A stretch of DNA of 49,837 nt from Bythopirellula sp. (GTDB taxonomy: Bacteria > Planctomycetota > Planctomycetia > Pirellulales > Lacipirellulaceae): contig JANQQA010000145.1 of the NCBI GenBank assembly GCA_028285205.1, positions 1 to 49,837 of the forward strand. Reading direction: 5' to 3'. Below are positions 2,058 to 47,622 of this stretch, one piece after another. The notes below the pieces were generated by a model. That model was not told where the DNA came from and searched no databases. It worked only from the letters and a program-made list of their open reading frames with translations. How positions within the stretch are numbered: the stretch's first letter is position 1; the number at the start of each line of letters is the position of its first letter. Made by a program: the position numbers and the translations under genes.

Positions 2058-3104
2058 ATGCAAAAGTTGAGCAACTCTCACCGCAGAACAATCCACCAGC
2101 CACTGCCAGGGTATGGTCTGCGCGGGCGCGTCTCGACGCGCGGCTTTACGCTTGTCGAGTTGCTGGTGGTGATTGCGATCATTGGGATCATGGTTCTGTT
2201 GCTGTTGCCGGCAATCCAGGCCGCGCGAGAGGCTTCGCGGCGGAGCAGCTGTAGCCAGTCGGTACGGCAGTTGGGAATGGCAGCGCTGCAATTCGAAACT
2301 GCTCGAGGCCACTTTCCCACCGCGAGCGAGGATGGGCTCAATCTCAGCCAGCACGCACGTTTGCTGCCCTACCTGGAGCAGCAGGCACTTTGGGAGCGTT
2401 TGCAGCTGCAAGCTGACCAGCAGCAAGACACTACTCAGCTGGAAACACTGGCCATCTTTCTATGCCCGTCTGATCCCGCGGAGGCAACATTCGATCAGAT
2501 CGCGCGAAATAACTTTCGCGCCAATTCCGGGACAAACCTTGGCCGCTGGGATCAGATTCTCATGCAAGAAGACAATGACGGAGTTTTCGTCGCAGGTTTT
2601 GAAGTACGCACCGAGCAAATCACCAGCGGCTTGTCGAAGACCGCGCTATTCTCAGAAATGGCAATGGGTGACGACCAACCAGATCAGGTCAGTCAATTCG
2701 GGGACTGGTTCTTCGCATCTGGAGGGCGAAACGCGGATCAGTTCTTTTTGAACTGCAGCAGGATCCAACCGTCGGCGGCAATTGGACAGGGAGCGCAGTT
2801 CAGCCTCTCGGGTCGGAGTTGGGCGCTGGCCACACTCAACAACTCCAGATACAACCATCTCATGCCACCAAACACCCACAGTTGCATGACCGGCAGTAGG
2901 CGGTCGACAGATGGACCGGCTGCGGACAGGGCGGTGTTGAATCAGGGCGCCGCAGGTACAGCCACCAGTTGGCACAACGGTGGGGTGAACGTCGTCTACG
3001 CGGACGGACACGTGGAGTTTGTCAGCGAGGAGATAAGCGTCATGGTCTGGCGCGGAATCGGCTCGCGAAGCTCAGAAGATGCAGCTGCAGTCGGACGGAA
3101 TTGA
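2058..3104 (+). CDS. DUF1559 domain protein (type II pseudopilin-like)
   Basis: A 348-residue protein with an N-terminal type IV pilin/pseudopilin methylation motif, [15 protein letters not shown], running into a hydrophobic helix. It is followed by the DUF1559 signature AAREASRR, and ends with the H-X9-DG element ([12 protein letters not shown]). The prepilin peptidase would cut after the Gly of RGFTLVE. DUF1559 proteins are greatly expanded in planctomycetes; their role is thought to be pseudopilin- or envelope-related but is not settled. A GTG at 2028 would add ten residues. The ATG at 2058 is preferred because it gives a short basic leader, although neither start has a clear ribosome site. 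It converges on the kinase gene with an 11-base gap. Confidence 0.85.
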
Positions 3105-3115
3105 TCTAACTCCGC

Positions 3116-4768
3116 TCAGTTTGCCTCGTCTTGCACCGCCTGGAGCCGACCTAGCGCGGTGAGAAGCTGCGTCCGAAACTCTGGCTCCGTCGAATCTTCC
3201 AAGAGTGCTTGCAAGACACCAATAGCCTTTTCGCGTTTTTCAGCGCCTTCAGGATAGCGCTGGGTGTTGATCCAATCGTTTCGAATCAGGATCTCCACAC
3301 AACGCCGCTGTTCCGGTACGTACTTGCTCTCCAACATTTGCGTTTCCAGATAAACCAGGTCCCGATCGAGGTAGGTCATCTCCTTCGGATCCGCAATGAT
3401 CAGCTCCGCCAGCAGCTCACGCCGCTCGGCGTTCTTGATTTCCAGTTCCAGTTGCAATTGTTGGACGACGTTCTCGTTTTGCTGGCTCTCGGCCAGGCGC
3501 AGACCCCAAGACCAGGCGCCAAAAACAGTCGCCGCGAGAATTGCGGCAAATGCGATCGTCGGCCGAGGATTCCTGCGAATCCACCGCACGGCGCGCTCGA
3601 CAAACGAGACTCTTCGACTGTGAATCGGACGTCCCGACTCAATCCGCGCCAGCTCGTCCGCCAATTCGCCGCACGAAGTGAGTCGGTCGGCAGGTCGTTT
3701 CTGTAGACAGCGGTCGATCACAATTTCGAGATCTTTGGGAACATTCGCTCGCAGCAGCCCGGGACGCCGGTAGGCGGCATCGCAAATGTTGCTGCACAGG
3801 TGCAGGTCGGTGGCTCCCTGAAACGGCAACTCGCCGGTTAGCAATTCATACAGCACAACGCCCAAGCTCCACAGATCGGTCCGTTCACCGATGAGTTCCT
3901 GTGCACCCGTTGCTTGTTCCGGACTCATGTAGTCGAGCGTTCCGATGCGCGCTGCTAATGAGCGCGTGGCATCGGCACCCACCGCCAATGCCAGACCAAA
4001 GTCGGTCAGCACCGGCTGATTCTCGCCGGTGATCAAGATGTTGGAGGGTTTGATGTCTCGATGGATAATGCCCTGCTGGTGGGCATATTGAACGGCCATC
4101 GCCAGCTGGCGAACGAAGGCAACGATTTCTAATGGGCTCTTGCGGGTGAATTCGTCTAGCCGCAGTTTGAGGTTGTCGCCATCGACAAGTTGGTAGGCGA
4201 TGTAGGTGACCCCGGCCGTATTACCCGAATCCCACACCCGCGCGATATTCGGATGATCAAGCGAGCCCGCTGCCTTGGCCTCGCGGAAGAACTCCTCCAA
4301 CTCTCGCCCAACGAGTTGATGTGCAAACCGAGGGACCTTCAGCGCAACCTGCCGCTGATGCCGCGTGTCCCAAGCTCGAAAGACGAGCCCAAAACCGCCG
4401 TCGCCGATCTTCTCCAGTTGCTGAAAATGTCCTAGCGAATTCGCGGAGAGCGTTAGCGAATGATTGCCAGCCTCCCCGACGCCCAGCACGCTTTCGACCA
4501 CGGCGCTGCTGTTGGGGAAGCGATCGAGTAGTTCGCGACGAAGCTGCTCGGTGTCGGAGGCGCGCTCGCGCCAGTGCGTCTCGATCCTCAGCAGTTCGCG
4601 CAAGAGTACGGACCGCAGCGGGTCTTGGATACCTTGCAGATAGTCATCAATTTTTGGCCAGCTCTGCTGTTGCCAGGCAGATTCGAAATCGTCGCAGAGC
4701 TGATCCAATTGTTGCCGCTGAGCGGCAGTGAGCGTCGCTTCGTCCAGGGTGCTGGATTCTTCCGTCAC
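3116..4768 (-). CDS. Membrane-anchored serine/threonine protein kinase
   Basis: A 550-residue Hanks-type kinase. Visible elements are the Gly-rich loop GDGGFG (122-127), the ATP lysine in VALK (K144), the catalytic loop HRDIKPSN (236-243), DFG (256-258) and the activation-segment end YMSPEQ (280-285). All are intact, so it should be active. Residues 1-110 are a helical extension common in planctomycete kinases. One transmembrane helix (about 401-421) follows the kinase domain, with a roughly 125-residue helical, charged tail beyond it. The ATG overlaps the stop of the upstream sigma factor by four bases, so the two are translationally coupled. A sigma/kinase pair of this sort suggests phosphorylation-controlled ECF signalling, which is inference. 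Confidence 0.92.
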   Translation of the reverse strand: MTEESSTLDEATLTAAQRQQLDQLCDDFESAWQQQSWPKIDDYLQGIQDPLRSVLLRELLRIETHWRERASDTEQLRRELLDRFPNSSAVVESVLGVGEAGNHSLTLSANSLGHFQQLEKIGDGGFGLVFRAWDTRHQRQVALKVPRFAHQLVGRELEEFFREAKAAGSLDHPNIARVWDSGNTAGVTYIAYQLVDGDNLKLRLDEFTRKSPLEIVAFVRQLAMAVQYAHQQGIIHRDIKPSNILITGENQPVLTDFGLALAVGADATRSLAARIGTLDYMSPEQATGAQELIGERTDLWSLGVVLYELLTGELPFQGATDLHLCSNICDAAYRRPGLLRANVPKDLEIVIDRCLQKRPADRLTSCGELADELARIESGRPIHSRRVSFVERAVRWIRRNPRPTIAFAAILAATVFGAWSWGLRLAESQQNENVVQQLQLELEIKNAERRELLAELIIADPKEMTYLDRDLVYLETQMLESKYVPEQRRCVEILIRNDWINTQRYPEGAEKREKAIGVLQALLEDSTEPEFRTQLLTALGRLQAVQDEAN

Positions 4769-5406
4769 TGCGCTGCCAACTCTGAGGGATAGTCGTCGGA
4801 CAATTGTTCGCGGATTCGGCGTCTTTTGCGTTCTACGGTGGCAATCGACAATTGCATCTGCTCGGCGATTTCCTCATTGGTGAGCCCTTCGTAGCGAAGC
4901 ACTAGTATGGTCCGCAGATCAGAATCGGAAAGCTTGTCCAGCAACTTTTGAATCTGCTCAGTTGCGATCTCTCTGGTGGAGGGAGTCTCTTGCTCGCCCT
5001 GAAACCGATCGAAACCGCCGTTGCGACGACTATCCATCGGCGAAAAAATCGAATTTCCGCGGATCCGCCCTCCGCCACGTTTCTGGGCCGTCTGACGTCG
5101 AATCGCATCGACGACCCGATCTCTGGTCAGCTGCGTTAAGATGAGCAACAGACCCGAGGACTCGCGAATCTGCGCGAATTCGCCCTGCTGTGCGCGAGCG
5201 TGAAATGACTGCAAGACGTCGTTGGCGATCGCGTACTCATCGATCACGCGAAGCGGAAAACTGCCAAAACGTCGGCGAGCAATCGCGGCTAGCTTTTCGT
5301 AGTAAAGCGTGCAGAGCGACTCCACCGCATCGGGCTCGTTGGCCTCGAGCTTGGCGAAATAGTTGGCGATATGTTCTGAATCACTCAGCAAATCACGGTT
5401 CCACAA
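4765..5406 (-). CDS. ECF-type RNA polymerase sigma factor
   Basis: A 213-residue sigma-70-family protein. Region 2 lies in the N-terminal half. A linker holds a Gly/Arg-rich stretch. Region 4 has a clear helix-turn-helix (about residues 165-195, NEEIAEQMQLSIATVERKRR). The size and DLR-x-ILVLRYEG-x-TNEEIA pattern match the planctomycete ECF group found next to Ser/Thr kinases. No ATG fits. An in-frame TGA lies two codons upstream of the TTG at 5406, so the start is that TTG or the TTG five codons later. It overlaps the kinase by four bases. No anti-sigma gene is adjacent, so control may run through the kinase. Confidence 0.88.
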   Translation of the reverse strand: MWNRDLLSDSEHIANYFAKLEANEPDAVESLCTLYYEKLAAIARRRFGSFPLRVIDEYAIANDVLQSFHARAQQGEFAQIRESSGLLLILTQLTRDRVVDAIRRQTAQKRGGGRIRGNSIFSPMDSRRNGGFDRFQGEQETPSTREIATEQIQKLLDKLSDSDLRTILVLRYEGLTNEEIAEQMQLSIATVERKRRRIREQLSDDYPSELAAQ

Positions 5407-20293: not shown

Positions 20294-22039
20294 TCAGCGA
20301 CACCGGCAGAGCCGTTTGGACTCGGCGTAGGGAGGAACGTGAAATAGTCGGTCCTCGGCGATCTGCCGCTTGATCTGATTCCAGTAGTCGGCTTCGAACA
20401 GCTCTCCGTGGTGCTCGACGAGCAAGTCCTTCAGTCGAGGCGGCAGTCCGAGGAAGTCGATGAACTCCTCGGGAAAGATATCGTTGGGGCCGACGCCAAA
20501 CCATGGCTCTGCAGCGATTTCGTCGTCGTAGTTGCCAGTCTGAGGTATCTTGCGAAAGTTGCATTCCTCCACCAGGCAAACTTCATCATAGTCGTAGAAC
20601 ACGACTCGTCCGTTGCGGGTGACGCCAAAGTTCTTGGGTAGCAGATCGCCCGGGAAGAGGTTGGTCAGTGCGAGGTCCTTCATTGCTTGACCGTAATCAA
20701 GAACAGCTCGGCTGGCAGCCTGATCATCAACTTGCTGAAAATACACGTTCAGCGGCGTAACACGTCGTTCCGCGTAGCAATGCTTTACAACTACCTCGTC
20801 GCGTTTCACGTCAACCGTGCGCGACGCTTGTTGAACCAAAACTTCCAGCAGTTCTTCCTTGAAGCGAGCACGCTGCAGGACCAGGTACTCATACTCCTGC
20901 GCGTCGACGAGTCGACCGGCGCGATCGTGCCGGAAAATGAGATGGTACCGATCAATGACACCCTGGCGACTGACTTCTTTTGGATAATCGAAATGGTCGC
21001 GGATCACTTTGAATACGACCGGATAGGTTGGCCGCGTGAACACGATCATCACCATGCCCCGATTTCCCTCTGCAATTTGATACAGGTCGTCAGTGCGAGC
21101 CAGGTGGCGTAGGGCGTTGCGATACAACTCGGTCTTGCCGTGCTTGTTGTAGCCCAGCGAGATGTAGATTTCCGCGACCCGCTTACGCGGAATCAGCGAG
21201 TGGATGAATTGCACGACATCGTAAGGGCGAAACACCTCGACCTGAAAGTAGGAGCGAGTAAAGCTGAACAGTAGGCTCACGTCATTTTCTTCGAGGAGGA
21301 CCGCCTCGACGTGAGGCCCGCGATCGTCGTTGGTGAAGCAAAGCACGACAGGGAGCACACCATCTTTTCGAGCCGCACGACCCATGAGATAGGCATGCTC
21401 ACCCCGATAGAACACTGTCTTCGCAACCTCGGCATCGCAGACGGTCGCGTCTTCCCCACGGGCTTTGAGTTCAGATTCGATCCGCTTCGCAACCAGCACC
21501 GCGTCCTCGCTGGTCACCTCCGACGGCAGGAACAGTTCTGGATGATCCGCCAGTATCTTGCAGATCAGTTCCTCGGTCGTCTCAGCATGGTATGAGCGGT
21601 ACACACTCTGCTGAGACGGCGTGGGGGGTTTCGTGTAATCGGTTTGGACAAATTCGATCTCTTCGTCAATTCCCACCGTGCTAAACACGCGACGCGTGAC
21701 CGAGTTGTAGAAAGTCTCGGCTAGTTCCCAGTCGTCGCGCTGGCTGATCATGCCTGAGTAGACGGCCTTGACACCGATCCACGTGAGCCGCGACTGAATC
21801 CTCTCGGCCAGTTTCTCGCGCACTTCGATGAGCAGTTCCTCAAGCACCTGACTACGAACGTCGAGCCGCTGCCGTGCGTCTGCATGCAGGCCCTGCCAAT
21901 CTCGTCGGGCAAACCTCTGCGTGGCCCGCCGAGTGATACCGCGGAAGGTGTTGTGAAACCTTGCAAACGCGTCGCGGATCAGTCGCGCAACGTCGTTGGC
22001 GATCCGACTAGTCGAGGGCGGTTTGTCGTGCATCTCCAT
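20294..22039 (-). CDS. aceK: Isocitrate dehydrogenase kinase/phosphatase
   Basis: A 581-residue protein, close to the E. coli AceK length. It carries the AceK kinase/phosphatase features: the ATP-site lysine in VVFKVIRD, the LFPGDLLPKNFGV block and the metal-binding YDYDE pair that replaces DFG. The N-terminal helical regulatory half is also AceK-like. The enzyme reversibly phosphorylates isocitrate dehydrogenase, diverting isocitrate to the glyoxylate shunt. It is divergent from the fused malate synthase/isocitrate lyase, so this is an aceBAK set with aceBA fused and aceK turned round. The frame is open further upstream. The ATG at 22039 is chosen for length; another Met lies two codons on. 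No strong ribosome site is visible. Confidence 0.93.
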   Translation of the reverse strand: MEMHDKPPSTSRIANDVARLIRDAFARFHNTFRGITRRATQRFARRDWQGLHADARQRLDVRSQVLEELLIEVREKLAERIQSRLTWIGVKAVYSGMISQRDDWELAETFYNSVTRRVFSTVGIDEEIEFVQTDYTKPPTPSQQSVYRSYHAETTEELICKILADHPELFLPSEVTSEDAVLVAKRIESELKARGEDATVCDAEVAKTVFYRGEHAYLMGRAARKDGVLPVVLCFTNDDRGPHVEAVLLEENDVSLLFSFTRSYFQVEVFRPYDVVQFIHSLIPRKRVAEIYISLGYNKHGKTELYRNALRHLARTDDLYQIAEGNRGMVMIVFTRPTYPVVFKVIRDHFDYPKEVSRQGVIDRYHLIFRHDRAGRLVDAQEYEYLVLQRARFKEELLEVLVQQASRTVDVKRDEVVVKHCYAERRVTPLNVYFQQVDDQAASRAVLDYGQAMKDLALTNLFPGDLLPKNFGVTRNGRVVFYDYDEVCLVEECNFRKIPQTGNYDDEIAAEPWFGVGPNDIFPEEFIDFLGLPPRLKDLLVEHHGELFEADYWNQIKRQIAEDRLFHVPPYAESKRLCRCR

Positions 22040-22232
22040 AGGTCGTTGTGCGCGGCCAGAACACACCGGAACTGCCACGTCCGCTGCTGAACATGTCGGA
22101 GGGAACTCTACGCCTCTCCAAAAAACAGCACGCATCTCTGTGGCGCCTAACGTGGGACATTCTAACCAATGCTCTCAAAAGCGCCGACAGTTGGAGCAGA
22201 TCGCGCGGATACGCTCACAGTGTTCTGACTCG

Positions 22233-22269: not shown

Positions 22270-22456
22270 CGTGGCCTTGCAAGCGCGCGGCGCCAACCCT
22301 GACACTGTTCGCTCTATTGGACGGCAAGCGTTTTCGACATGGGCTGACATAAGCCGCAGTGCAGCTACGAGGATTCGAGCTGTGCGGCATCCGATTTGCT
22401 GAAGTGTTCGAGTCGACGATGCTTCTACGGCTGTATCTGGTCAAGGAGATGGATAA

Positions 22457-25400
22457 ATGAGCGCCCCGTCGAAAGATTCAACAGCTTCCTCCGCTGGCAG
22501 TTTCAAATTGCCTGGACTCACCATTCGCGACGATCTGAGAAACACTTACTCTGACGTCTATACCCCCGACGCGCTGGCCGCCTTGGCGGCCATGGCCAAG
22601 TTCAATCACGATCAGAAGCAGCTGATGGCCACTCGCATTGCGCGCCGAGCGAGGCGCTTCCGCGACCAGGAGCACATTCGCTTTCTTGATGCCGACTCAC
22701 TGATCCCTCGGACCCAGATCCGGGTACAGGACGCACGGGATGGAAAGTTCGTGGGATCGGAGATTCCGGCCGACCTCCAGCGACAGTGGATTCAAGGCAC
22801 CGGTCCGGCTGCGAAACCGAACGCACCGACAGAATCCAGCATTCGAAACGTCGCTTACGCGCTGCTTTCTGGTGCCGACGGCTGGATGTTTGATGGTGAG
22901 GATGCCCTCGGCCAGATCGACTGCATGTCACTCGACAACCAGCGCAACCTGAAGCTGGCGATCCACAAAGACAAGATCTTTATGGATACGGCACGCGAAG
23001 TGGCTGACGAGATGAACACCTGGGCGCGAGCTTTTCACGGCCATGGCACCATCCAGGACTGGAAGAAGCAGCTGGACTTCACGACGAGAATCTTCCGCGC
23101 GCGAGGTCTACACCTCGACGATCGGCATATCCGCGACGAACAAGGAAGGCCGTTCTCGGCGTCAATCGTCGATCTGACGCTTTACGTGACCAACAATTAT
23201 CGGCAGCTTCAGCGAGAGGGCTCGTCGATCATCCTCTATTTGCCCAAGATTCAGACGGCCGAGGAAGCCGCGTTGTGGAACGAGATGCTACTCGCTCTGG
23301 AAGGCTATCTCGGCCTAGTTGCGGGCACGATCAAAGTCTATGTGCTCGTGGAACAGCTTGAAGCCACATTTCAGCTGATGGAGATTCGCGCCGCGCTGGG
23401 TGAGCATTTCGTCGGATACAACACAGGCCGATGGGACTACATCAACAGCGTCGCCGACGCACTTGCTTGGAACAAGGACTTTATCAACGCCAATATCGAC
23501 GCGATCACAATGACGTATGGCTACATGCGAAACTACGAAGATCGCGTACGTCGCGCGGTGACCACGCCGGACAGTTTGGGAAGATACGCGCTGTGGCAAG
23601 GAGGCATGGAGCCAAACATCCCGGTCGGCTCGCAACAAGGTGTGGCCAACAGCATGGCGAAAGCTGTGGCTGGGGCGGAACGCGAACAACGAGAAGGCGC
23701 CAGCGGTAAATGGGTCGCCCACTGGAAGATGGTGCACATTGTCCGGCCTGTCTGGGAGAAAGTCGGAGAGGACAACCAGCTAGGGCGCGAATTCCCGCGA
23801 TTGACCTATACCCAGGCGGACGCCGATGGCCTGATGCTCTTAGAGGATGCACCTCGCACCATTCGCGGAGCGCGCGACCTACTCAGCGTCGGATTGCAAT
23901 ACGGGAACGCCTTCGGACAGGGCTTCCAGGCCGCAGCGCTCAAGCCGGCGGACTTTTTTGGCAACGAAGACGTGCTGTACCTCATGGAAGATGCAGCAAC
24001 CGGTGAAATCCGACTCAGCATCCTCTGGGAATGGGTCCACAAAGGCGCCAAGCTTACCGAGGACGACCCTCACACGGGTGCCAAAGCGGGCGATCTCTTC
24101 ACGGTTGATGTGTTTCGCCGCTTACTAACCGAGGAGTTCGGCAAGCTGTTGGAAGCGAGCGGCAGAGATGTGCATACGATCTCAAAGTCGACCACCCTGC
24201 CGATCGCACGCGCGATCGTCGAGGCGTACGTGATCGACGGAACCAAGGCCCCGTGGTACATCGATCTCTTGAACCTCAACCTCAACAACCACGACCTGCG
24301 CGTTGCATACGATCGGATTCAGCAATACATGTGCAGTTTCAAAAGCGACGGGACGCGAATTACGGAGAACCTTGATACAGCACGCGCCTTGGAGAGCAGC
24401 GAAGCAGACTTGTTCGATGATCAAGTTCGCGAAATCAAACAGTGGCAGCAAAGCCCGCGATTTAAGCACGTGACCCGACTGTATGGACCGCGTCAAGTGG
24501 CCGAGCAGCGCGGGACGGTTTCGCAGGACTACTCGATAGCTAAAACAGCAGCGGAAGGAATGTACGCACGCTTGCGCGAGTTGTTTCTCGGCAAACAAGC
24601 GATCACCACTTTCGGACCTTATTCTCCCGGCCAGGCGGTCGTGATGAAACGGATTGGCATCGAAGGCATCTACCTGGGCGGCTGGGCGACTTCCGCCAAG
24701 GGATCCATCGATGAAGATCCCGGGGCCGATCTGGCCAGTTACCCGCTCAGTCAGGTTCCCGACGAAGCGGCGCCCATCGTGCGCGCGTTGCTCACCGCGG
24801 ACAAGAATCAGCAGTTCACCCGTACGCGGCTGACCGAGGACCAGCTGGCGAGAACTCCGAAGTACGACTATCGGCCGTTTATCATCGCCGATGCGGACAC
24901 CGGACACGGTGGCGACGCACACGTCCGAAATCTGATCCGCCGCTTTGTCGAAGTAGGCGTGCCCGGCTACCACATCGAGGATCAAAAACCGGGCTGCAAG
25001 AAGTGCGGTCATCAAGGGGGCAAGGTGCTGGTCCCGGTGGATGAGCAGATCAAGCGACTCAACGCGGCTCGCTTCCAACTCGACGTGATGAACGTACCGG
25101 GTATCATCGTCGCGCGCACAGATGCGGAGGCGGCAACTTTGCTGGACGGAAAAGGCGATGAGCGCGATCAGCCGTTCATCCTTGGCGCGACCAGGGTTGT
25201 CGACCTACCAAGCTGGCGGTCGGCGTACCTCGCTATTCTGAAGAGACTCAACGAGCTGGGTGTCCAGGAGATCTATGGACATCTGTTGTATAAGCTCCCC
25301 GACCGTGACTACGAAATGGCCAACACGTGGCTGGATAGAGTAGGCATTTTCTCCATGATGGAGGAGTTGCTTCAACGCCATCGACGAGACCGCCTGCTTC

Positions 25401-26683
25401 CGGTCGACGCGATTCTCAGCGAGGTATCTAACAAGTTCGTCGAGTCATGGGAGTCGCAGGCAGGACTCAAGACATTCCAGCAAGCGGTGGCCGACGCGAT
25501 GACCTTCCACATTGATGAGGGTCAGCAATTTGAGATGACGGTCGACCAATGGCTCACGTGGTCCCAAGCTGTGGGCCATCACGAAGCTCGTGCACGAACC
25601 CAGTCTATGGGATTGAACATGGTGTGGGATTGCGAGCTGGGCCGTACCCCTGAGGGATACTTTCCCGTCCAAGGTGGCATTGACTACGCCATTGCCAAAT
25701 CCTTGGCGGTAGCACCGTTTTGCGACTTGATTTGGATGGAAACAAAGACTGCCAACTTGGCCGATGCCAGGCAGTTCGCCGAGGCGATCCACGCTGTGTA
25801 TCCCGATCAAATGCTGGCCTACAATCTCTCCCCATCATTTAATTGGGATACGACGGGCATGACTGATGACCAGATGCGCGAGTTTCCTCAGGAACTCGGC
25901 AAGCTCGGCTTCGTGTTCAACTTTATTACCTACGGCGGACATCAGGTCGACGGCATGGCAGCGGAAGAATTCGCTACCGCACTGAAGCAGGATGGCATGT
26001 TGTCACTGGCCCGCTTGCAGCGGAAACTGCGACTGGTCGAGTCGCCTTACAAGACGCCGCAAACGCTCGTGGGTGGTCCTCGTTTGGATGGTGCGCTGAT
26101 GGCGTGCTCCGGGCGCACCGCAACTACCGCCGCGATGGGCAAGGGGTCTACGCAGGTGCAACACCTCGTGCAGACCGAGGTGCCTGTGCGGCTCTTGGAC
26201 GAATGGCTCGAGCTGTGGAAACAGAGCTATGAGACGCTCAGTCCGCTTCGCGCTCAGCTGCGGCCGCATGCTGCCGGCTCAGATCTGTTGGAGTTGAGTG
26301 TTCTCGATTCGTGCGAATTTAAGAAAGCTGGGATAATTCTCGCTCCCATTAAGGATCACAGAGGCAACAACATTCTATCCATCCGCTATTTGGAGACCTA
26401 CGACGGTGAATTTCGACGCAAACGCCTGATGACGTTGCTGCATCTGTTTTTGATTCACCGCTACAAGGCCGCGTCGGTCCACTATTTGAGTCCCAACGAA
26501 GACAATCAACGACAGTCCGTTCGCATGCAGGAACTGGGCATATTCGACGACGTGCAGACAGAGGTAGGGCACATTATCGTTGCTGCCGTGAACGCCGAAC
26601 GGATCGCCGAACTATTGAACCCAGACCGTATCGAGCTGGCGAAGCTGATCGGCAAGGGCCAAGCCGAACTCGCAGCCCATTGA
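22457..26683 (+). CDS. Malate synthase-isocitrate lyase fusion protein
   Basis: 1408 residues joining both glyoxylate-shunt enzymes. Residues 1 to about 620 are malate synthase A-like: [13 protein letters not shown] (262-274), GRWDYI (324-329) and MEDAA (510-514), whose Asp corresponds to the catalytic base. Residues about 645-1240 are isocitrate lyase: [21 protein letters not shown] (811-819), the KKCGH signature (848-852) and SPSFNW (1125-1130). A C-terminal segment of about 150 residues (from about 1245) resembles the extra domain of ICL2-type lyases. All key motifs are intact, so both activities are expected. Together they turn isocitrate and acetyl-CoA into succinate and malate, possibly with channelled glyoxylate. 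AAGGAG lies eight bases before the ATG. The lone frame has no internal stop, so the fusion is real in this sequence. Confidence 0.94.
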
Positions 26684-27492: not shown

Positions 27493-28023
27493 ATGCGATT
27501 GTTGTTAGCTATCCAGTGCTTCGTGAAAGTGCTGTTTGATTCTAGTTTTGGCGACAAAGTCAGACAACTGACTGAGGGCGACGCTGTTCCGTCGTCGCCG
27601 CAGCCAAAGGCGCCGGAGGTCTCGCCGTCGCCGCCACCTGGACGGAGCGAGGCGATCGCGTTAGTTGCGGCGCTGCAGCGTGAGGCAAGGTTCGTGGACT
27701 TAGTCACCGAGTCGCTTGATGGCTACTCCGATGCGCAGATTGGAGCCGCCGCGCGGGAGGTCCTGTCCAACTGCGGCAAGGTGCTCGACCGGGTGTTCGC
27801 GCTCCGGCCGGTGGCGGAAGTCGCGGAAGGCGAATCGATGCAAGTGCCAGCAGAGTACGACACGGGCCGCGTGCGGATTACGGGCAACGTTTCGCAGCAG
27901 CCACCATTCTCGGGCAAGCTCGTCCACGCTGGTTGGGCGGCAACACAGTGCGAATTGTCATCGTGGACCGGAAGTGCTGCCGCTGCCTTGGTCGTGGCTC
28001 CGGCGGAAGTGGAAGTCGGTTAA
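27493..28023 (+). CDS. DUF2760 domain protein
   Basis: A 176-residue protein. Residues 33-50 are a Pro/Ser linker. The rest is the DUF2760 core: ALVAALQREARFVDLV, ARAVLSNCGKVLDR-like helices and GKLVHAGW near residue 140. DUF2760 genes are known next to Hsp70-like genes, as here, where the next starts 18 bases on. No catalytic motif is seen. The N-terminal hydrophobic stretch (about residues 1-17) could be a membrane anchor but is short. A co-factor role for the ATPases is likely from context but untested. The ATG at 27493 has no clear ribosome site. Confidence 0.82.
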   Translation: MRLLLAIQCFVKVLFDSSFGDKVRQLTEGDAVPSSPQPKAPEVSPSPPPGRSEAIALVAALQREARFVDLVTESLDGYSDAQIGAAAREVLSNCGKVLDRVFALRPVAEVAEGESMQVPAEYDTGRVRITGNVSQQPPFSGKLVHAGWAATQCELSSWTGSAAAALVVAPAEVEVG

Positions 28024-28041
28024 TTCGAACAAGAGTTGGAT

Positions 28042-29850
28042 ATGAATGCGAAGTATGTCATTGGTATCGATTTGGGAACGACCAATTCCGTCGTGTCATA
28101 CGTGGCGCTGGATGCGGAAAATCCTACCGTCGAACTGCTGAGTCTGCCACAACTGGTTGCGCCAAGCACCATCGAGCAACGTGACGCACTGCCGTCGTTC
28201 CTCTACCTGGCTCCCCAGCACGAAGCGGAGTCGGGCGCACTCGACGTGCCTTGGGACCAGGGTAGGCAGTATTGCGTCGGCGAGCACGCCCGCCGACAAG
28301 GGGCAGAGATGCCCGATCGCACGGTCGCCGCCGCCAAGTCTTGGCTATGTCATAGTCGGGTGGACCGTCGGCAACCGTTGCTGCCTTTCGGTGCCTCGTC
28401 GGAAGTCGACACCATCTCGCCAGTCATGGCATCGCAGCGCTATCTGGAGCACCTGATCGAATGTTGGGATGCGAAATTTCCTGAGTCACCGATCCACGAA
28501 CAACAAGTTGTGCTCACGGTGCCAGCTTCGTTCGACGCCGCAGCGCGCGAGCTGACGCGAGAAGCTGCCAGAGCGGCAGGACTACCCGCGGATTTGGTCT
28601 TGCTCGAAGAACCGCAGGCCGCACTCTACGCTTGGCTGGCCGAGCGAGGAGATGCTTGGCGAGAAGATCTCTCTGCCGGGGATCGCCTGTTGGTTTGTGA
28701 CGTCGGCGGCGGCACGACTGACTTGACCCTGATCGACGTGGTTGATGAGCAGGGCGAGCTTGAGCTACGTCGGCTGGCTGTCGGCGATCATTTGCTGGTC
28801 GGCGGCGACAACATGGATTTGACTCTCGCCCACGGCGTTGCGGAGTTGTTCGCCGACGAAGGCGTCAAGCTCGATGCCTGGCAGTCCGTATCACTGTGGC
28901 ATGCTTGCCGCGATGCCAAGGAAGCCCTGCTCTCCCACGATGCCCCTGAGTCGCATCGTGTTTCGGTCTTAGGCCGCGGCAGTAAGGTCATTGGCGGCAC
29001 CGTTAGCGTTGATGTACCCCGCGAGTTGGCTGCCGATCTGTTGGTCAGCGGCTTCTTTCCGGAGTGTGAACTGGGCGATAAACCACAGCGACGTCGTGCC
29101 TCGGGTTTTCAGGAACTCGGCTTGCCATTCGAGTCGGATGTCGCCATTACCCGACACTTGGCTGCGTTTCTCACTGCACACACGAAGGGTGAGAGTAAGG
29201 CAAACTATCCCACACACTTGCTATTCAACGGTGGCGTTTTCAAAGCCGATGCGTTGCGGCAACTGGTCATCAGCACATTAGGCGGATGGTTGCCAGAGCA
29301 GCATAGTGTGAAGGAACTGCCGGGCCAGCGCGATCTCGATTTCGCTGTAGCCCGCGGGGCGGCATTTTACGGTCGGATGAAACATCACGGCGGCATGCGG
29401 ATCCGCGGCGGGACCGCGCGCTCGTACTACGTTGGGATTGAGACCGCCGGGCTCGCGATTCCCGGAGTCCCTCGGCCGTTGCGCGCCTTGTGCGTCGTGC
29501 CGTTTGGCATGGAGGAGGGGACCGAAGTGGAGGTGCCGTCCGGCGAAATCGGTGTCGTGATTGGCGAGCCGGTGCACTTTCGGTTTTTTAGTTCCGCCGT
29601 CCGCTCTCATGACCAGCCCGGCTGTGTCCTGCCTCAGATCGATGAGGAGGAACTCGACGAGACCGACTCACTGGAAACGGTATTGGAAGCGGGCGACGGC
29701 TCCGAGGAGACGTACGTCCCTGTTCGCTTCCTTGCCAAGATCACTGAACTAGGAGTATTTGAGCTGTGGTGCGTCAGCACTTCGTCGGATCACCGGTGGA
29801 AGCTGGAGTTCAGCATTCGCGATGAAGCGCCAGACAGGGCACAGGTGTGA
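28042..29850 (+). CDS. Hsp70-like ATPase (first of a tandem pair)
   Basis: 602 residues. The actin/Hsp70 nucleotide-binding fold is intact: GIDLGTTNS (8-16), the LLEEPQAALYAW block near residue 190 and CDVGGGTTDLTLI near residue 220. Later motifs are VGDHLLVGGDNMDL and LLFNGGVFKA. The C-terminal region is shorter and unlike the DnaK peptide-binding domain. The frame starts at a TTG (28036), but the ATG at 28042 is preferred. It overlaps the second Hsp70 by GTGA at 29847-29850, so both are co-translated. It is not DnaK: no DnaJ or GrpE gene is near. Such proteins may act on a specific client. Its function is unknown. Confidence 0.88.
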   Translation: MNAKYVIGIDLGTTNSVVSYVALDAENPTVELLSLPQLVAPSTIEQRDALPSFLYLAPQHEAESGALDVPWDQGRQYCVGEHARRQGAEMPDRTVAAAKSWLCHSRVDRRQPLLPFGASSEVDTISPVMASQRYLEHLIECWDAKFPESPIHEQQVVLTVPASFDAAARELTREAARAAGLPADLVLLEEPQAALYAWLAERGDAWREDLSAGDRLLVCDVGGGTTDLTLIDVVDEQGELELRRLAVGDHLLVGGDNMDLTLAHGVAELFADEGVKLDAWQSVSLWHACRDAKEALLSHDAPESHRVSVLGRGSKVIGGTVSVDVPRELAADLLVSGFFPECELGDKPQRRRASGFQELGLPFESDVAITRHLAAFLTAHTKGESKANYPTHLLFNGGVFKADALRQLVISTLGGWLPEQHSVKELPGQRDLDFAVARGAAFYGRMKHHGGMRIRGGTARSYYVGIETAGLAIPGVPRPLRALCVVPFGMEEGTEVEVPSGEIGVVIGEPVHFRFFSSAVRSHDQPGCVLPQIDEEELDETDSLETVLEAGDGSEETYVPVRFLAKITELGVFELWCVSTSSDHRWKLEFSIRDEAPDRAQV

Positions 29851-32693
29851 CCGATCAGCCAAACAACTCCGCTTCCGACGAGCCCACCCCGAGCCGGTTT
29901 GTCGTGGGAATCGACCTCGGCACGACCAACTCCGCGCTGGCGTATGTCGATTCGCACGAGACGGAGTGGCAAGTCCGCACCCTGCCGATACGCCAAATTG
30001 TGGCCGCCGGCGAAGTAGACGATCGGTCGACGTTGCCGTCGTTTCTCTACCAGGCAACTCTAGCGGAGTCCAAGACGCAAACGTTCGAGTTGCCGTGGCA
30101 CGATGCAGACGGGCAATGGGTGGTGGGTCTTTACGCCCGCGATGAGGGTTCACTGAAGCCCGGTCGCGTGATCAACTCCGCAAAATCATGGCTATCACAT
30201 TCGGGAGTCGATCGAACAGCCGACTTACTGCCCTGGCAAGGCGATAGCGACGTCGAACGGATTTCACCCGTGCAGGCATCGGCCGCAGTCCTACGCCATT
30301 TGCACAACGCGTGGAATTTAGACTTCCCCGACCATCCTCTGGCCGAGCAAGACGTCGTCGTCACCCTGCCCGCCTCGTTTGACGAGGTTGCGCGCGAACT
30401 TACGCTGGCAGCCGCCAAGCAAGCCGGCCTGTCGGGCGTCGTGTTGTTGGAAGAACCCCAGGCCGCATTCCACGCTTGGGTCGCCCGTCAAGCAGAAAGT
30501 TGGCAGGAACACGTCAGACCGAACCAAAAGATCTTGGTCTGTGACATCGGTGGCGGAACAACCGACTTCACACTGATTCGCGTGAGCGAGAACAACAGCA
30601 CCGGCGAATTGGAGTTCCATCGCATTGCGGTAGGCGATCATCTGCTCTTGGGCGGCGACAACCTCGATCTCGCCCTGGCCCGGTACCTCGAAGGACGAAT
30701 ATCCGGCGGAGGTCGACTCGACAGCCGCCAGTGGGATGTGCTGGTCCGTTCTGCCTGCCGTGTCAAAGAGACATTACTCTCGGATCAGGGACCCGATAGG
30801 TTTACCCTGCATCTTCCCGCCAGCGGATCGAAGCTAATTGGCGGTGGTGTTCAAGTCGACGTGACGCGCGAAGAGGTGTTGAAAGTGTTGGTGGAAGGCT
30901 TTTTGCCTCAGGTCGCACTGACTGACAAACCAGAACGCCATCGCTCTGGGTTTCAAGACTTTGGCCTACCCTTCACGGCAGATGCGGCCATAACGCGCTA
31001 TTTGGCACTTTTCTTGTCTGCCCATCGGCACACTGGCAGCGAGTTGGCACAGTTTGATCAGCATGAGCAACGAGATTTCGATCCGGCTCGCCCGGATGTG
31101 ATTCTCCTCAACGGAGGGTTCTTTGAGTCGCGCGTCCTCAGCAACCGACTGATTGAGGCGGTCCGCCTATGGTTCTCACAAAGTGACCAACCGTGGGAAC
31201 CGCGAGTACTTGATACACAACACTTGGACTTGGCGGTTGCCCGCGGAGCGGCCTACTACGGCATGGTCCGTCGAGGTGAAGGCGTTGGCATCATCGCGAC
31301 TTTGGCGCGGAGCTACTACGTGGGGGTCGCCGGTTCTCCTCCGCGCGCGGTATGCCTGGCACCAGGGACTGCTCAGGCGGGGCAAGACTTCGAAATCAGC
31401 GATCTTGAGTTTCAGCTGACGCTTGCAGAGCCCGTCGAGTTCCCGATCTACGTTTCCAGCACGCGACTCGTCGATCCTCCGGGCAAGATTGTGGACGTGG
31501 ACCCCAACGAGCTAACGCCCTTGCCGCCGATTCGCACCGTGCTGCACACGGGACGGAAGAAAGAAAGACAACTGGCGAACGTGCGTTTGCATGCGCATCT
31601 CTCCGAGATTGGCATGCTCGAACTCTCGTGCAAAGACGTCGATACCGACCGTGTATGGCAAATGCAGTTCGATGTTCGCTCGACGACGCAATCCGACTTG
31701 CAACCTCACGAGTCGGCCTCCGAGAGCGAGGGTTTCGTCGATGAAGACCTCATCACAGCAGCTGCTTCTACCATCAACGCGGTGTTCGGTGAGGCCGCGA
31801 CCGAACCGCCCTCAAAACTGATGAAGCAATTAGCCAGTACACTCGATCTGGAAAAGCACGCATGGCCAACATCGGTTTTGCGGCGGCTGTGGGAAGTGCT
31901 GATGGAAGTGGAATCTGGTCGCCGGCGCTCCGCGGCCCACGAATCAAGATGGCTGCACTTGGTGGGCTACAGTTTGCGTCCGGGATACGGTTTCGCGGTC
32001 GACGATTGGCGTGTTGCCGAGACTTGGCGCGCCGTGAACGGAAAGCTCGCCTTTCCTGCGTCACAAGCACCCGCACTCGTACTGTGGCGACGCATTGCCG
32101 GCGGTTTGTCGCGTGGACAACAATTGGCGCTGGCCGAACCACTACTGGCAGACATGCGGAGCCTGAGGCGGCGGTTCAGCGGAGGAAAATCGAAGTCGAC
32201 TCAGACGTTGCTCGACCCGACTCGGGCGGCCGAGATATGGCGTTTGTTGGGTGCGCTGGAGCTCCTACCCGTCGAAGTAAAGACGGAATTGGGCGATATC
32301 GTTGTCGAACTGCTGCCCAAACGCAAGCTGGCGACCCGCGTCCCCGATATGTTGTGGACGCTCGGTCGTTTGGGGCAACGCGTGCCACTCTACGGACCTC
32401 TGAATACGCTCGTCTCGGTGGAGATCGCAAGCAGGTGGTTGGACGCGATCTTGAATGTGCCCGACGATCAACCGATGGCGTTGCTCGCTGCCATGCAGCT
32501 TGCACGGCGAACGGGAGATCGTCATCGCGACTTAGCCGACTCTAATCGGCAGGACGTGATCGAGTGGCTACAGGAAAACGACGCGGCCGAACACTTGGTT
32601 CAACTCGTGGCAACCGGAGGCACTCTAGTCGACGAAGAACAACAAATCGTCTTTGGTGAGTCGCTCCCCGCAGGACTGCTGATTTCGGTCTAA
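29847..32693 (+). CDS. Hsp70-like ATPase with long C-terminal extension
   Basis: 948 residues, much longer than DnaK. The N-terminal ATPase domain matches the gene before it motif for motif: GIDLGTTNSALAYV, LLEEPQAAFHAW, CDIGGGTTDFTLI, VGDHLLLGGDNLDL, and TDKPERHRSGFQDFGLPF. The two are therefore tandem paralogues. The last 300 or so residues have no counterpart in the first protein. They are Leu/Arg-rich and helical (for example SGRRRSAAHESRWLHLVGYSLRPG). Start GTG at 29847 overlaps the previous stop. Both ATPase sites are intact, so the pair may form a hetero-complex with DUF2760. No J-protein or nucleotide exchange factor is nearby. Function unknown. Confidence 0.88.
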   Translation: MTDQPNNSASDEPTPSRFVVGIDLGTTNSALAYVDSHETEWQVRTLPIRQIVAAGEVDDRSTLPSFLYQATLAESKTQTFELPWHDADGQWVVGLYARDEGSLKPGRVINSAKSWLSHSGVDRTADLLPWQGDSDVERISPVQASAAVLRHLHNAWNLDFPDHPLAEQDVVVTLPASFDEVARELTLAAAKQAGLSGVVLLEEPQAAFHAWVARQAESWQEHVRPNQKILVCDIGGGTTDFTLIRVSENNSTGELEFHRIAVGDHLLLGGDNLDLALARYLEGRISGGGRLDSRQWDVLVRSACRVKETLLSDQGPDRFTLHLPASGSKLIGGGVQVDVTREEVLKVLVEGFLPQVALTDKPERHRSGFQDFGLPFTADAAITRYLALFLSAHRHTGSELAQFDQHEQRDFDPARPDVILLNGGFFESRVLSNRLIEAVRLWFSQSDQPWEPRVLDTQHLDLAVARGAAYYGMVRRGEGVGIIATLARSYYVGVAGSPPRAVCLAPGTAQAGQDFEISDLEFQLTLAEPVEFPIYVSSTRLVDPPGKIVDVDPNELTPLPPIRTVLHTGRKKERQLANVRLHAHLSEIGMLELSCKDVDTDRVWQMQFDVRSTTQSDLQPHESASESEGFVDEDLITAAASTINAVFGEAATEPPSKLMKQLASTLDLEKHAWPTSVLRRLWEVLMEVESGRRRSAAHESRWLHLVGYSLRPGYGFAVDDWRVAETWRAVNGKLAFPASQAPALVLWRRIAGGLSRGQQLALAEPLLADMRSLRRRFSGGKSKSTQTLLDPTRAAEIWRLLGALELLPVEVKTELGDIVVELLPKRKLATRVPDMLWTLGRLGQRVPLYGPLNTLVSVEIASRWLDAILNVPDDQPMALLAAMQLARRTGDRHRDLADSNRQDVIEWLQENDAAEHLVQLVATGGTLVDEEQQIVFGESLPAGLLISV

Positions 32694-44934: not shown

Positions 44935-47622
44935 ATGGCAGTCCGCAATCTTGAGAAGATATTTCGCGCGCAAAGCGTTGCGATCATTGGTGCCAGCCAG
45001 AACGAGTCGAGTCTGGGCCATACCGTAGTACGCAACGTGCTCGGCGGCGGCTTCGAGGGCGACGTGTTCCCGGTGAATCCGAAGTATAAGACGATTGACG
45101 GGCTGCGCTGTTACGCGCGGATCGCCGATTTACCGGCGCCCGCTGACATGGCGATCATCTGCACACCTGCCGCGACCGTGCCCGCCGTTGTCCGTGAATG
45201 CGGCGAGGCGGGCATCATGGGACTGGTGATCATTTCAGCGGGCTTCCGAGAGTCGGGCACCAGCGGGGCTGAGCTGGAAGAAGTCGTCCTGCGCGAGGCA
45301 GCTGCGTTTGATGGTTTGCGGATGATTGGGCCCAACTGTCTCGGGATTATGGCTCCGCACAATTCGCTCAACGCAAGCTTCGCTAGCGGATCGCCGTCAC
45401 GAGGTCACGTTGCATTTCTGTCACAGTCGGGTGCCGTCTGCACAGCGGTCCTCGATTGGGCGAAGCAGGAGCACATTGGATTCTCGTATTTCGTTTCCGT
45501 GGGCAACATGCTCGACGTGACGGTCGCCGACCTGATCGACTACTTTGCTTCCGATCCCTGGACCAAGTCGATCATCATGTACGTCGAATCAATCACCGAA
45601 GCTCGGGAGTTTATGTCGGCGGCCCGCGCTTTCGCGCGCCGCAAACCAATCATCGCGTACAAAGCCGGCCGCTTTGCCGAATCCGCACAGGCAGCGGCAT
45701 CGCACACTGGGGCGATGGCGGGCGTCGATACCGTCTATCAAGCGGCATTCAACCGAGCTGGGATCGTCCGCGTCATGGAGATGACCGACATCTTCGACTG
45801 TGCGGAGCTACTCGCTCGACAGAAGCTGCCCAAGGGCCCGCGGTTAGCAATTGTGACCAACGCAGGTGGGCCAGGCGTGATGGCCATCGATGCGCTGCTG
45901 GAATTGAAGGGCGCGCTGGCTCAACTGACCGACGAGACGATGGAGACCCTTAACCAACACCTGCCGCCCGCATGGTCGCACAACAATCCGGTCGACGTAT
46001 TGGGGGACGCGAGCCCACAGCGGCTGGCCAAAGCAGTCGATATCGTGCTGGCCGATGAGGGAGTGGACGCAGCGCTGGTGGTGTTCGCGCCGCAGGCCGT
46101 CAGTGAACCCACCGATGCGGCCGAAGCAGTAATTGAAATTGCCAAAACGAGCGGGAAACCGATTCTTACGTCGTGGATGGGCGGCGTCGCAATGCAGCCG
46201 GGCGTCGACCTGCTCAACGCCGCCTCGATCCCTACCTACCCCACGCCGGAAGCAGCTGTTCGTGCATTCATGTATCTGGTGACGTACGCGCGGACCCGCG
46301 AAGTGCTTAGCGAGACGCCACGCGATTTGTCGGTCAACTTCCCACTCAGCCGCAACAAGCGGAGGTTCGAGTTAGAGGCAAGCCTGGGCAACGGACAAGG
46401 CACGCTCAGCGAAGACGCCTCGAAGAATCTTCTCGAAGCTTACGAGATTCCCGTGGCGAAACCCCAGCAAGCCCGCAGTGCCGATGAAGCGGTTGAAGTC
46501 GCCAACGAGATTGGATATCCGGTGGCTTTGAAGGTGCTCTCGCCACAGATCACACACAAGACGGACGTCGGCGGCGTCGCACTCGATATTGCCAACGACG
46601 CCGAGGTGCGCGAAGCTTACGATCGCATCGTCTCACGTGCCCGAGAGCTCCGGCCTGATGCAACCGTCGAAGGGGTCACCGTGCAGAAAATGGTGACCAG
46701 CCCTGTCGGGCGCGAGTTGATTGTCGGCGCGAAACGCGATGCCGTCTTCGGGTCGGTGCTGTTGGTGGGAGCTGGAGGCACAGAAGCGGAGTTGTTCAAA
46801 GACATTGCTCTTGAGTTACCGCCGTTGAGTGAGCGTCTCGCGCGCAGGATGCTCGAATCGTTGCGGTCGTGGCCGCTGCTGACCGGATATCGCGGCCGTC
46901 CGCCGGTAAACATCGATCGCCTGGTCGAGGTGCTGATGAGAATCTCGTATCTGATCGCAGATTCTCCCGAAATCAGCGAAATGGACGTCAATCCGCTGCT
47001 CGTCACTCCGGACGATGTGATCGCTCTTGATGCTCGGATAATCGTTGATCCTGAACTGCTGAAGCGTCGGCCGGAACCATATTCACACTTGGCCATCCAT
47101 CCTTACCCGGAGGAGTACACACGCACCGCGGAGCTCAAAGATGGTACTCAAGTGCTTCTGCGAGCAATCAAGCCAGAAGATGAGCCAATGTGGCACGAAC
47201 TGCTGAAATCTTGCTCAGAGGAATCCATCTGGTATCGCTTCATGCGGATATTCAAGGAAGCGAGCCATGAGATGGCCGCTCGTTTCTGCTACATCGATTA
47301 CGATCGTGAAATCGCTATTGTGGCCGAACTGGAGCGCGATGGTGAGCGTAAGCTGATCGGAGTCGGCAGATTGGTGGCGGATGCCGATCATACCGAGGCG
47401 GAGTACGCCGTGCTTGTTGCCGATGCCTATCAAGGGCGCGGGTTGGGCGGGCTGTTGACCGACTACTGCCTCGAGATTTGCAAGTCTTGGGGAATCCGCT
47501 CGGTAGTGATTGAGTCTGCCCCTGACAACCGGAAGATGCTACGCATGTCTGAGGGCCGAGGTTTCACGATTGAACGCTGCGACACCAACGGCATCGCCAT
47601 TGGTCGTGTTGCGCTCGATTAG
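44935..47622 (+). CDS. ADP-forming acyl-CoA synthetase fused to GNAT acetyltransferase
   Basis: 895 residues. A CoA-binding domain (residues 1-130, SVAIIGASQNESSLG), a succinyl-CoA-synthetase-like region with SHTGAMAG (His257) and an ATP-grasp part (about 470-700) lie in that order. A GNAT domain follows (about 715-895), with YQGRGLGG for acetyl-CoA. The layout matches Pat/PatZ lysine acetyltransferases, which regulate acetyl-CoA synthetase. In the classical Pat proteins the catalytic His is said to be lost. Here His257 is kept, so the synthetase part may be active, and the protein may act on acetate metabolism and signal by acetylation. The start ATG is 44935. It has no obvious ribosome site. 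Confidence 0.9.
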   Translation: MAVRNLEKIFRAQSVAIIGASQNESSLGHTVVRNVLGGGFEGDVFPVNPKYKTIDGLRCYARIADLPAPADMAIICTPAATVPAVVRECGEAGIMGLVIISAGFRESGTSGAELEEVVLREAAAFDGLRMIGPNCLGIMAPHNSLNASFASGSPSRGHVAFLSQSGAVCTAVLDWAKQEHIGFSYFVSVGNMLDVTVADLIDYFASDPWTKSIIMYVESITEAREFMSAARAFARRKPIIAYKAGRFAESAQAAASHTGAMAGVDTVYQAAFNRAGIVRVMEMTDIFDCAELLARQKLPKGPRLAIVTNAGGPGVMAIDALLELKGALAQLTDETMETLNQHLPPAWSHNNPVDVLGDASPQRLAKAVDIVLADEGVDAALVVFAPQAVSEPTDAAEAVIEIAKTSGKPILTSWMGGVAMQPGVDLLNAASIPTYPTPEAAVRAFMYLVTYARTREVLSETPRDLSVNFPLSRNKRRFELEASLGNGQGTLSEDASKNLLEAYEIPVAKPQQARSADEAVEVANEIGYPVALKVLSPQITHKTDVGGVALDIANDAEVREAYDRIVSRARELRPDATVEGVTVQKMVTSPVGRELIVGAKRDAVFGSVLLVGAGGTEAELFKDIALELPPLSERLARRMLESLRSWPLLTGYRGRPPVNIDRLVEVLMRISYLIADSPEISEMDVNPLLVTPDDVIALDARIIVDPELLKRRPEPYSHLAIHPYPEEYTRTAELKDGTQVLLRAIKPEDEPMWHELLKSCSEESIWYRFMRIFKEASHEMAARFCYIDYDREIAIVAELERDGERKLIGVGRLVADADHTEAEYAVLVADAYQGRGLGGLLTDYCLEICKSWGIRSVVIESAPDNRKMLRMSEGRGFTIERCDTNGIAIGRVALD

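Follow-up and report, generated by a model that had tools for sequence, protein, structure and literature searches.

Fusions of the two glyoxylate-shunt enzymes, malate synthase (MS) and isocitrate lyase (ICL), have arisen at least three times independently: in nematodes with ICL first, in Euglena with MS first, and in the bacterium Anaeromyxobacter dehalogenans (PMC1630690). A table in PMC4921024 lists an ICL/MS fusion for taxid 404589, Anaeromyxobacter Fw109-5, and PMC8219788 adds Acanthamoeba, three chrysophytes and a prokinetoplastid, the source in euglenophytes being left unknown there (2021). For the lyase, the described point of reference is ICL2 of Mycobacterium tuberculosis, which has a helical insert at residues 278-427, often found in fungal forms as well, and a C-terminal domain at residues 603-766 that binds acetyl-coenzyme A (acetyl-CoA); binding of acetyl-CoA there changes the arrangement of the tetramer and makes it more active (PMC6788997). 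Here we analyse a contig of 49,837 nucleotides (henceforth the window) from the planctomycete Bythopirellula sp. (Lacipirellulaceae), which carries MS and ICL2 in one gene. We propose that this gene very probably encodes one acetyl-CoA-gated polypeptide for both steps of the glyoxylate shunt, arisen from an MS-ICL2 operon as has happened repeatedly in bacteria.

The window protein was confirmed to be MS followed by ICL2 in a single uninterrupted frame: upon translation, the open reading frame at 22457-26683 on the plus strand starts with ATG, has no internal stop and yields 1408 residues. The gene and its parts are as follows:

22443-22448, plus strand: likely ribosome-binding site AAGGAG, 8 bases 5' of the ATG of the fused gene, from reading of the sequence
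22457-26683, plus strand: MS-ICL2 fusion, 1408 residues, from frame, domains and orthologues
22457-24376, plus strand: MS half, residues 1-640, with a fold like malate synthase A (MSA) plus extra length and with conserved R214, R216, E299, D327 and D512
24377-24412, plus strand: linker, residues 641-652 (12 residues), containing GCA where a close relative keeps a relic ATG
24413-26134, plus strand: ICL2 catalytic domain, about residues 653-1226, KKCGH at 848-852, from Pfam and the 6edw_A alignment
25193-25642, plus strand: ICL2 helical insert, about residues 913-1062, placed by adding 635 to positions 278-427 of M. tuberculosis ICL2, limits from PMC6788997
26168-26659, plus strand: ICL2 C-terminal regulatory domain, about residues 1238-1401, equivalent to M. 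tuberculosis ICL2 603-766, from the 6edw_A and 8g8k alignments

Pfam places MS_TIM-barrel at residues 212-443, MS_C at 506-569 and ICL from 657 onward in two stretches, and the translation contains all four motifs GRWDY, MEDAA, KKCGH and SPSFNW. A sequence-only reading of this DNA had called such a 1408-residue fusion, and frame, Pfam, motifs and orthologues agree with it. That reading had named fusions in nematodes and in Euglena, which is correct for both, as is the MS-first order of Euglena shared with the window protein; the order in nematodes is the opposite one, and the bacterial fusion of Anaeromyxobacter was missing from that reading (PMC1630690). Euglena gracilis, Acanthamoeba, the chrysophytes and the prokinetoplastid join both enzymes in one chain with MS first (PMC1630690, PMC8219788), but these fusions are eukaryotic, whereas ICL-MS of Caenorhabditis elegans has the opposite order in its one chain (PMC1630690). 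The Anaeromyxobacter fusion (A. dehalogenans, Fw109-5) is bacterial as well but belongs to Myxococcota; the A. dehalogenans ICL was grouped with the form carrying an inserted domain (PMC1630690), and the fusion may be of the same kind as the window protein. Bacterial MS/ICL fusions have thus been known since the Anaeromyxobacter report of 2006, and the window protein adds a member.

Both halves retain their catalytic residues. The catalytic residues and magnesium ligands of MS named in PMC3112382 correspond, through the alignment with Escherichia coli malate synthase A (3cuz; equivalences counted by hand), to R214, E299, D327 and D512, and these are identical, together with R216, in 53 of 53 aligned rows. 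An AlphaFold model of the MS half (45-row alignment) reached a predicted local distance difference test score (pLDDT) of 85.3 and a predicted template-modelling score (pTM) of 0.88, with 3cuz as its best match in the PDB (template-modelling score TMt 0.90, 25% identity). The half has the MSA fold and the catalytic Arg, Glu, Asp and Asp in common with the E. coli enzyme, but 3cuz is a stand-alone protein and the window half is about 110 residues longer.

Three ICL2 features, the KKCGH loop, the helical insert and the C-terminal regulatory domain, are present in the lyase half. The alignment with M. tuberculosis ICL2 (6edw_A) runs unbroken over residues 653-1400 of the fused protein (1102 bits), while other bacterial and fungal isocitrate lyases mostly align in two stretches, the first ending near 908-914, and two of the fungal alignments restart at residue 995. 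The C-terminal domain is matched separately by 8g8k over residues 1241-1400, in line with the earlier call of an ICL2-type lyase with an extra C-terminal domain. End-to-end alignment, helical insert, acetyl-CoA domain and KKCGH loop are all shared with M. tuberculosis ICL2 (6edw, 6ee1); that protein, of 766 residues, is free-standing, whereas the lyase here is fused. Of the 53 rows, 51 cover the KKCGH cysteine, and every one of these has it. Neither a lost catalytic residue nor a stop or frameshift between the halves, which the sequence-only reading had named as signs against a working fusion, was found, and the frames of orthologues in other genomes are open too.

The window is contig 326 of a 373-contig draft genome of 7.9 Mb (93% complete, 3% contamination), and no second MS or ICL was found in this 93%-complete genome. 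Fused orthologues in open frames occur in genomes G007 (1412 residues), G033 (1436 residues) and G004 (1400 residues), at 83, 83 and 75% identity. Two of these are isolates: G033 (locus L037) is Aeoliella straminimaris ICT_H6.2 and G004 (L047) is Bythopirellula polymerisocia Pla144. The glyoxylate shunt has been reported as absent from all planctomycetal genomes analysed to date (PMC7716947), and neither of its enzymes as identified in any Planctomycetia isolate (PMC8303584). B. polymerisocia Pla144 and A. straminimaris carry the fused gene, contradicting both statements. The words glyoxylate, isocitrate and malate are absent from the main text of the paper describing Pla144 (2020); when NCBIfam models are run on the Pla144 protein, the isocitrate lyase model alone passes its cut-off, which may be why the fusion was overlooked. 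The supposed absence of the shunt shapes ideas of planctomycete life on acetate and fatty acids, yet some members of the Lacipirellulaceae, a type strain published in 2020 among them, do carry a shunt gene.

The sequence-only reading had called for a count of bacterial fusions by lineage, and fused groups were found in Planctomycetota, Dadabacteria, Krumholzibacteriota and Hydrogenedentota. All distribution searches used the window protein or its MS half as query and are biased toward near relatives. At E 0.001, 35 of 59 genomes (the window's own plus 58 relatives) match, and four hold the complete fusion (G000, G004, G007 and G033). When genome contigs were scanned with the MS half, 447 of 515 pattern matches were relatives; the best 80 of these 447 loci comprise 18 fused loci (three at contig ends), 26 with MS followed by a separate ICL2, and 36 without ICL in the available stretch, some of which end soon after the synthase. 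The lists of fused and operon loci also take in L031-L035 from other genomes. At E 1e-60, 11 of 294 Planctomycetota genomes match and two are fused, the window genome and G135. The coordinates in G135 equal those in G355, a Phycisphaeraceae metagenome-assembled genome that contains L065. The two genes are adjacent but separate in G061, G083, G139, G223, G235, G281 and G305, and G161 and G234 hold a more distant MS/ICL pair (33-35% identity). In the phylum of G350, taken as Dadabacteria, 36 of 57 genomes match, with 16 complete, stop-free fused frames and two more cut by contig ends. The phylum of L061, taken as Krumholzibacteriota, has four matches in 80 genomes, two of them fused (G351 and G415). 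Matches number 11 in 68 genomes for the phylum of L082, taken as Hydrogenedentota; eight are distant, and the others are one fusion at a contig end, one free-standing ICL2 and one pair of separate frames. No plasmid matched at E 1e-60.

Several candidates did not hold up as fusions. The long frames of G139, G223 and G235, considered as fusions with long linkers, proved upon reading of the open frames to be separate MS and ICL2 genes; G376, a 1424-residue frame with one TAG within the match, is an operon whose two genes are separated by one stop; and G528, where the ICL2 match runs into the synthase end of the query, is a free-standing ICL2. Locus L065 (G355:C53) is nested inside Lacipirellulaceae sequences (100/99 in the 53-row joined tree described below), and its genome is the sole match, a fused one, among 198 of its class. 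This nesting and isolation suggest that L065 is a ready-made fusion acquired by transfer or else a mis-binned contig. Other arrangements occur among the relatives as well. A planctomycete of the same order has adjacent, unfused MS and ICL2 genes (G036:C37:36678-40936; L031:6655-10964), and G009, G047, G053 and G055 hold neighbouring, more distant MS and ICL genes at 34-36% identity; these relatives therefore have several types of shunt. In G021, of the same family, an MS gene is followed only by a 41-residue ICL2 match (L032:2114-2236, minus strand, 49% identity, E 7e-7), a shunt operon that has seemingly lost its lyase.

A joined tree of MS plus ICL2 was built from 53 rows, 23 fused and 30 operon, after removal of six near-duplicates and with L138, L139 and duplicate loci omitted. 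It contains five changes between the fused and operon states, each forced by well-supported branches. The fused groups are a planctomycete clade, whose sister is the operon locus L038 (100/100), a Dadabacteria clade of 15 rows, L061, L163 from G415, and L082. Monophyly of all fused sequences was rejected (log-likelihood difference 293, p-AU 1e-47), as was a grouping of Dadabacteria with the planctomycetes (p 2.5e-55). Joining Dadabacteria with L061, a grouping named after the tree had been seen, was rejected weakly (p 0.026), and the cautious count is therefore four origins. The tree suggests that MS and ICL2 genes of an operon were fused in the same way on several occasions. The breadth looks new, with fused forms in five groups and operon forms between them: in excerpts of the open-licence literature we found no report of an MS-ICL2 fusion in planctomycetes or Dadabacteria, the excerpts on Dadabacteria mention both shunt genes but no fusion (PMC8406227), and Chloroflexus has MS and ICL at two loci (PMC3150298).

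How the two states are ordered in time is indicated by the start of the lyase. An alignment-based count was made over 26 fused and 32 operon loci, with L118, L123, L153 and duplicates left out. Three codons upstream of the first conserved ICL2 residue, 27 of the 32 operon loci have an ATG, the likely start; 12 of the 26 fused loci have ATG at this same -3 position and none at -6 to -4, -2 or -1. Since some fused genes retain this relic start codon, the operon came first and the fusion second. A two-gene MS-ICL2 operon would have lost the stop between its genes, and like events would have occurred independently in other bacterial groups. Locus L038 may represent the step preceding fusion: read by eye, its ICL2 start is a GTG nine bases past a TAG stop codon, and this TAG overlaps an AGGAG resembling a ribosome-binding site. 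The linkers measure 11-12 residues in planctomycetes, 16-18 in most others and 41 in L163; that of L132 is 21 residues as printed, its match beginning four residues late.

The opposite order, with an ancestral fusion split into operons, would fit the state changes too, as changes on an unrooted tree do not separate gain from loss, and a frameshift could have broken an original fusion in L070. We nevertheless hold fission to be rather improbable: none of the five fused groups lacks a member with the relic ATG, linker lengths differ by group, and three groups consist of one row each amid operon neighbours. L070 itself (2507-4897, Hydrogenedentota) has an ICL2 frame that overlaps the end of MS, with no start codon where one is usual; a frameshift may have broken a fusion here, or its ICL2 may be extended at the N terminus like the free-standing one of G528, the two being equally likely. 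The relic codon also raises the idea that translation of fused genes also begins internally, ahead of the ICL2 domain, and yields a separate ICL2 in addition to the fusion. The old ATG kept in frame in 12 of 26 fused genes and two in-frame TTG codons in the window linker speak for it, but the -3 codon is GCA in the window, ATG in the close relative L036 and GTG in L037; two of the four planctomycete relatives have GCA or GCG, six other loci have CTC, and an internal start is therefore not conserved. By eye, no ribosome-binding site is evident before the window TTG codons either, and we consider a second product improbable.

In the single polypeptide that we favour, the C-terminal ICL2 part would cleave isocitrate to succinate and glyoxylate, and the N-terminal MS part would join glyoxylate with acetyl-CoA to form malate. 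Because the lyase is of the ICL2 type with the same C-terminal domain, an acetyl-CoA switch is likely: acetyl-CoA, which would also be the second substrate of the synthase half, probably opens the pathway through this domain. By homology to ICL2, the protein would form tetramers of about 0.6 MDa, in which synthase and lyase stand at 1:1, and glyoxylate might be channelled between the halves. Such channelling and acetyl-CoA control, both raised in the sequence-only reading, are plausible. What we see directly is the sequence with its domains and catalytic residues, the failure to find a second copy, the gene linkage, the operon relatives and the tree; we infer both activities, acetyl-CoA activation, the tetramer and a coupling to the isocitrate dehydrogenase kinase/phosphatase AceK, whose gene is the upstream neighbour:

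20294-22135, minus strand: aceK, isocitrate dehydrogenase kinase/phosphatase, divergent upstream neighbour of the fused gene (NF002804, 652 bits, cut-off 488)

The gene aceK adjoins the fusion in all five planctomycete fused loci examined, in two arrangements: it is divergent in the window, L036, L037 and L065, and in B. polymerisocia (L047) it follows the fusion in the same orientation. Across the other loci from L031 to L131, with duplicates of the five planctomycete ones set aside, it occurs only in operon L084. In E. coli, the aceBAK genes encode MS, ICL and AceK together. B. polymerisocia has the fused MS-ICL2 gene and then aceK on the same strand; unlike in E. coli, the enzymes are fused, ICL2 replaces the short ICL, and the window aceK is divergent. 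The neighbouring AceK would phosphorylate isocitrate dehydrogenase and so divert isocitrate to the fused enzyme. One NADP-isocitrate dehydrogenase above the family cut-off was found in the genome, and it contains GGGIRSLNVALRQ, the site that AceK phosphorylates in E. coli. A lyase half acting mainly on methylisocitrate in propionate metabolism is quite improbable: in M. tuberculosis, ICL2 combines both activities and is sensitive to propionyl-CoA (PMC6788997), but the fusion to MS and the linkage to aceK favour a role in glyoxylate and isocitrate metabolism.

Several points weigh against a bifunctional, gated enzyme of repeated operon origin. We know of no activity measurement for any fused member. 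The MS half scores 242.6 bits against the NCBIfam TIGR01344 cut-off of 594.5 and thus falls below the threshold of the MSA equivalog; it is therefore MSA-like and not a member of that equivalog. As the unfused relative L038 is likewise under the cut-off (241.9 bits), the low score is probably typical of the subfamily instead of a sign of damage by fusion. An AlphaFold model of residues 27-1226 (16 fused rows) was poor, with a pLDDT of 49.4 and a pTM of 0.33; it was discarded and gives no arrangement of the halves. Trees of each half, as proposed in the sequence-only reading, also show repeated change of the fused state but are less well resolved than the joined tree: a quick MS tree has six changes, three of them forced, and a quick ICL2 tree (46 rows) has four, one forced. 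Finally, the relic-ATG counts are counts of sequences and not of independent events.

An artefact of assembly or a frameshift uniting neighbouring genes, which the 373-contig state of the source genome (93% complete, 3% contamination) might bring to mind, is virtually impossible and is refuted by fused frames at 75-83% identity in three further genomes, the cultured isolates B. polymerisocia and A. straminimaris among them, and by the 12-residue linker alike in the window, L036, L037 and L047.

Repeated fusion in the same order amounts to a natural experiment on why consecutive enzymes join, and as cultured environmental bacteria carry the gene, its activity, gating and channelling are open to direct test. 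The fused genes also provide bacterial candidates for the origin of the eukaryotic fusion. As a tentative idea, which we hold to be doubtful as a whole, perhaps five bacterial fusions of MS ahead of an acetyl-CoA-gated ICL2 were kept for the passage of glyoxylate from lyase to synthase within an acetyl-CoA-switched assembly, and such a lineage could have been the source of the MS-first fusion of Euglena, Acanthamoeba and chrysophytes.

Elsewhere in the window, all on the plus strand, a DUF2760 gene is followed by genes for two Hsp70-like proteins, the second with a C-terminal DUF3731 domain (27493-32693), possibly a small chaperone operon. Some 18 kb from the fused gene, an 895-residue protein (44935-47622, plus strand) combines CoA-binding, succinyl-CoA-ligase-like, ATP-grasp and GNAT acetyltransferase domains and is possibly an acetyl-CoA-linked protein acetyltransferase.

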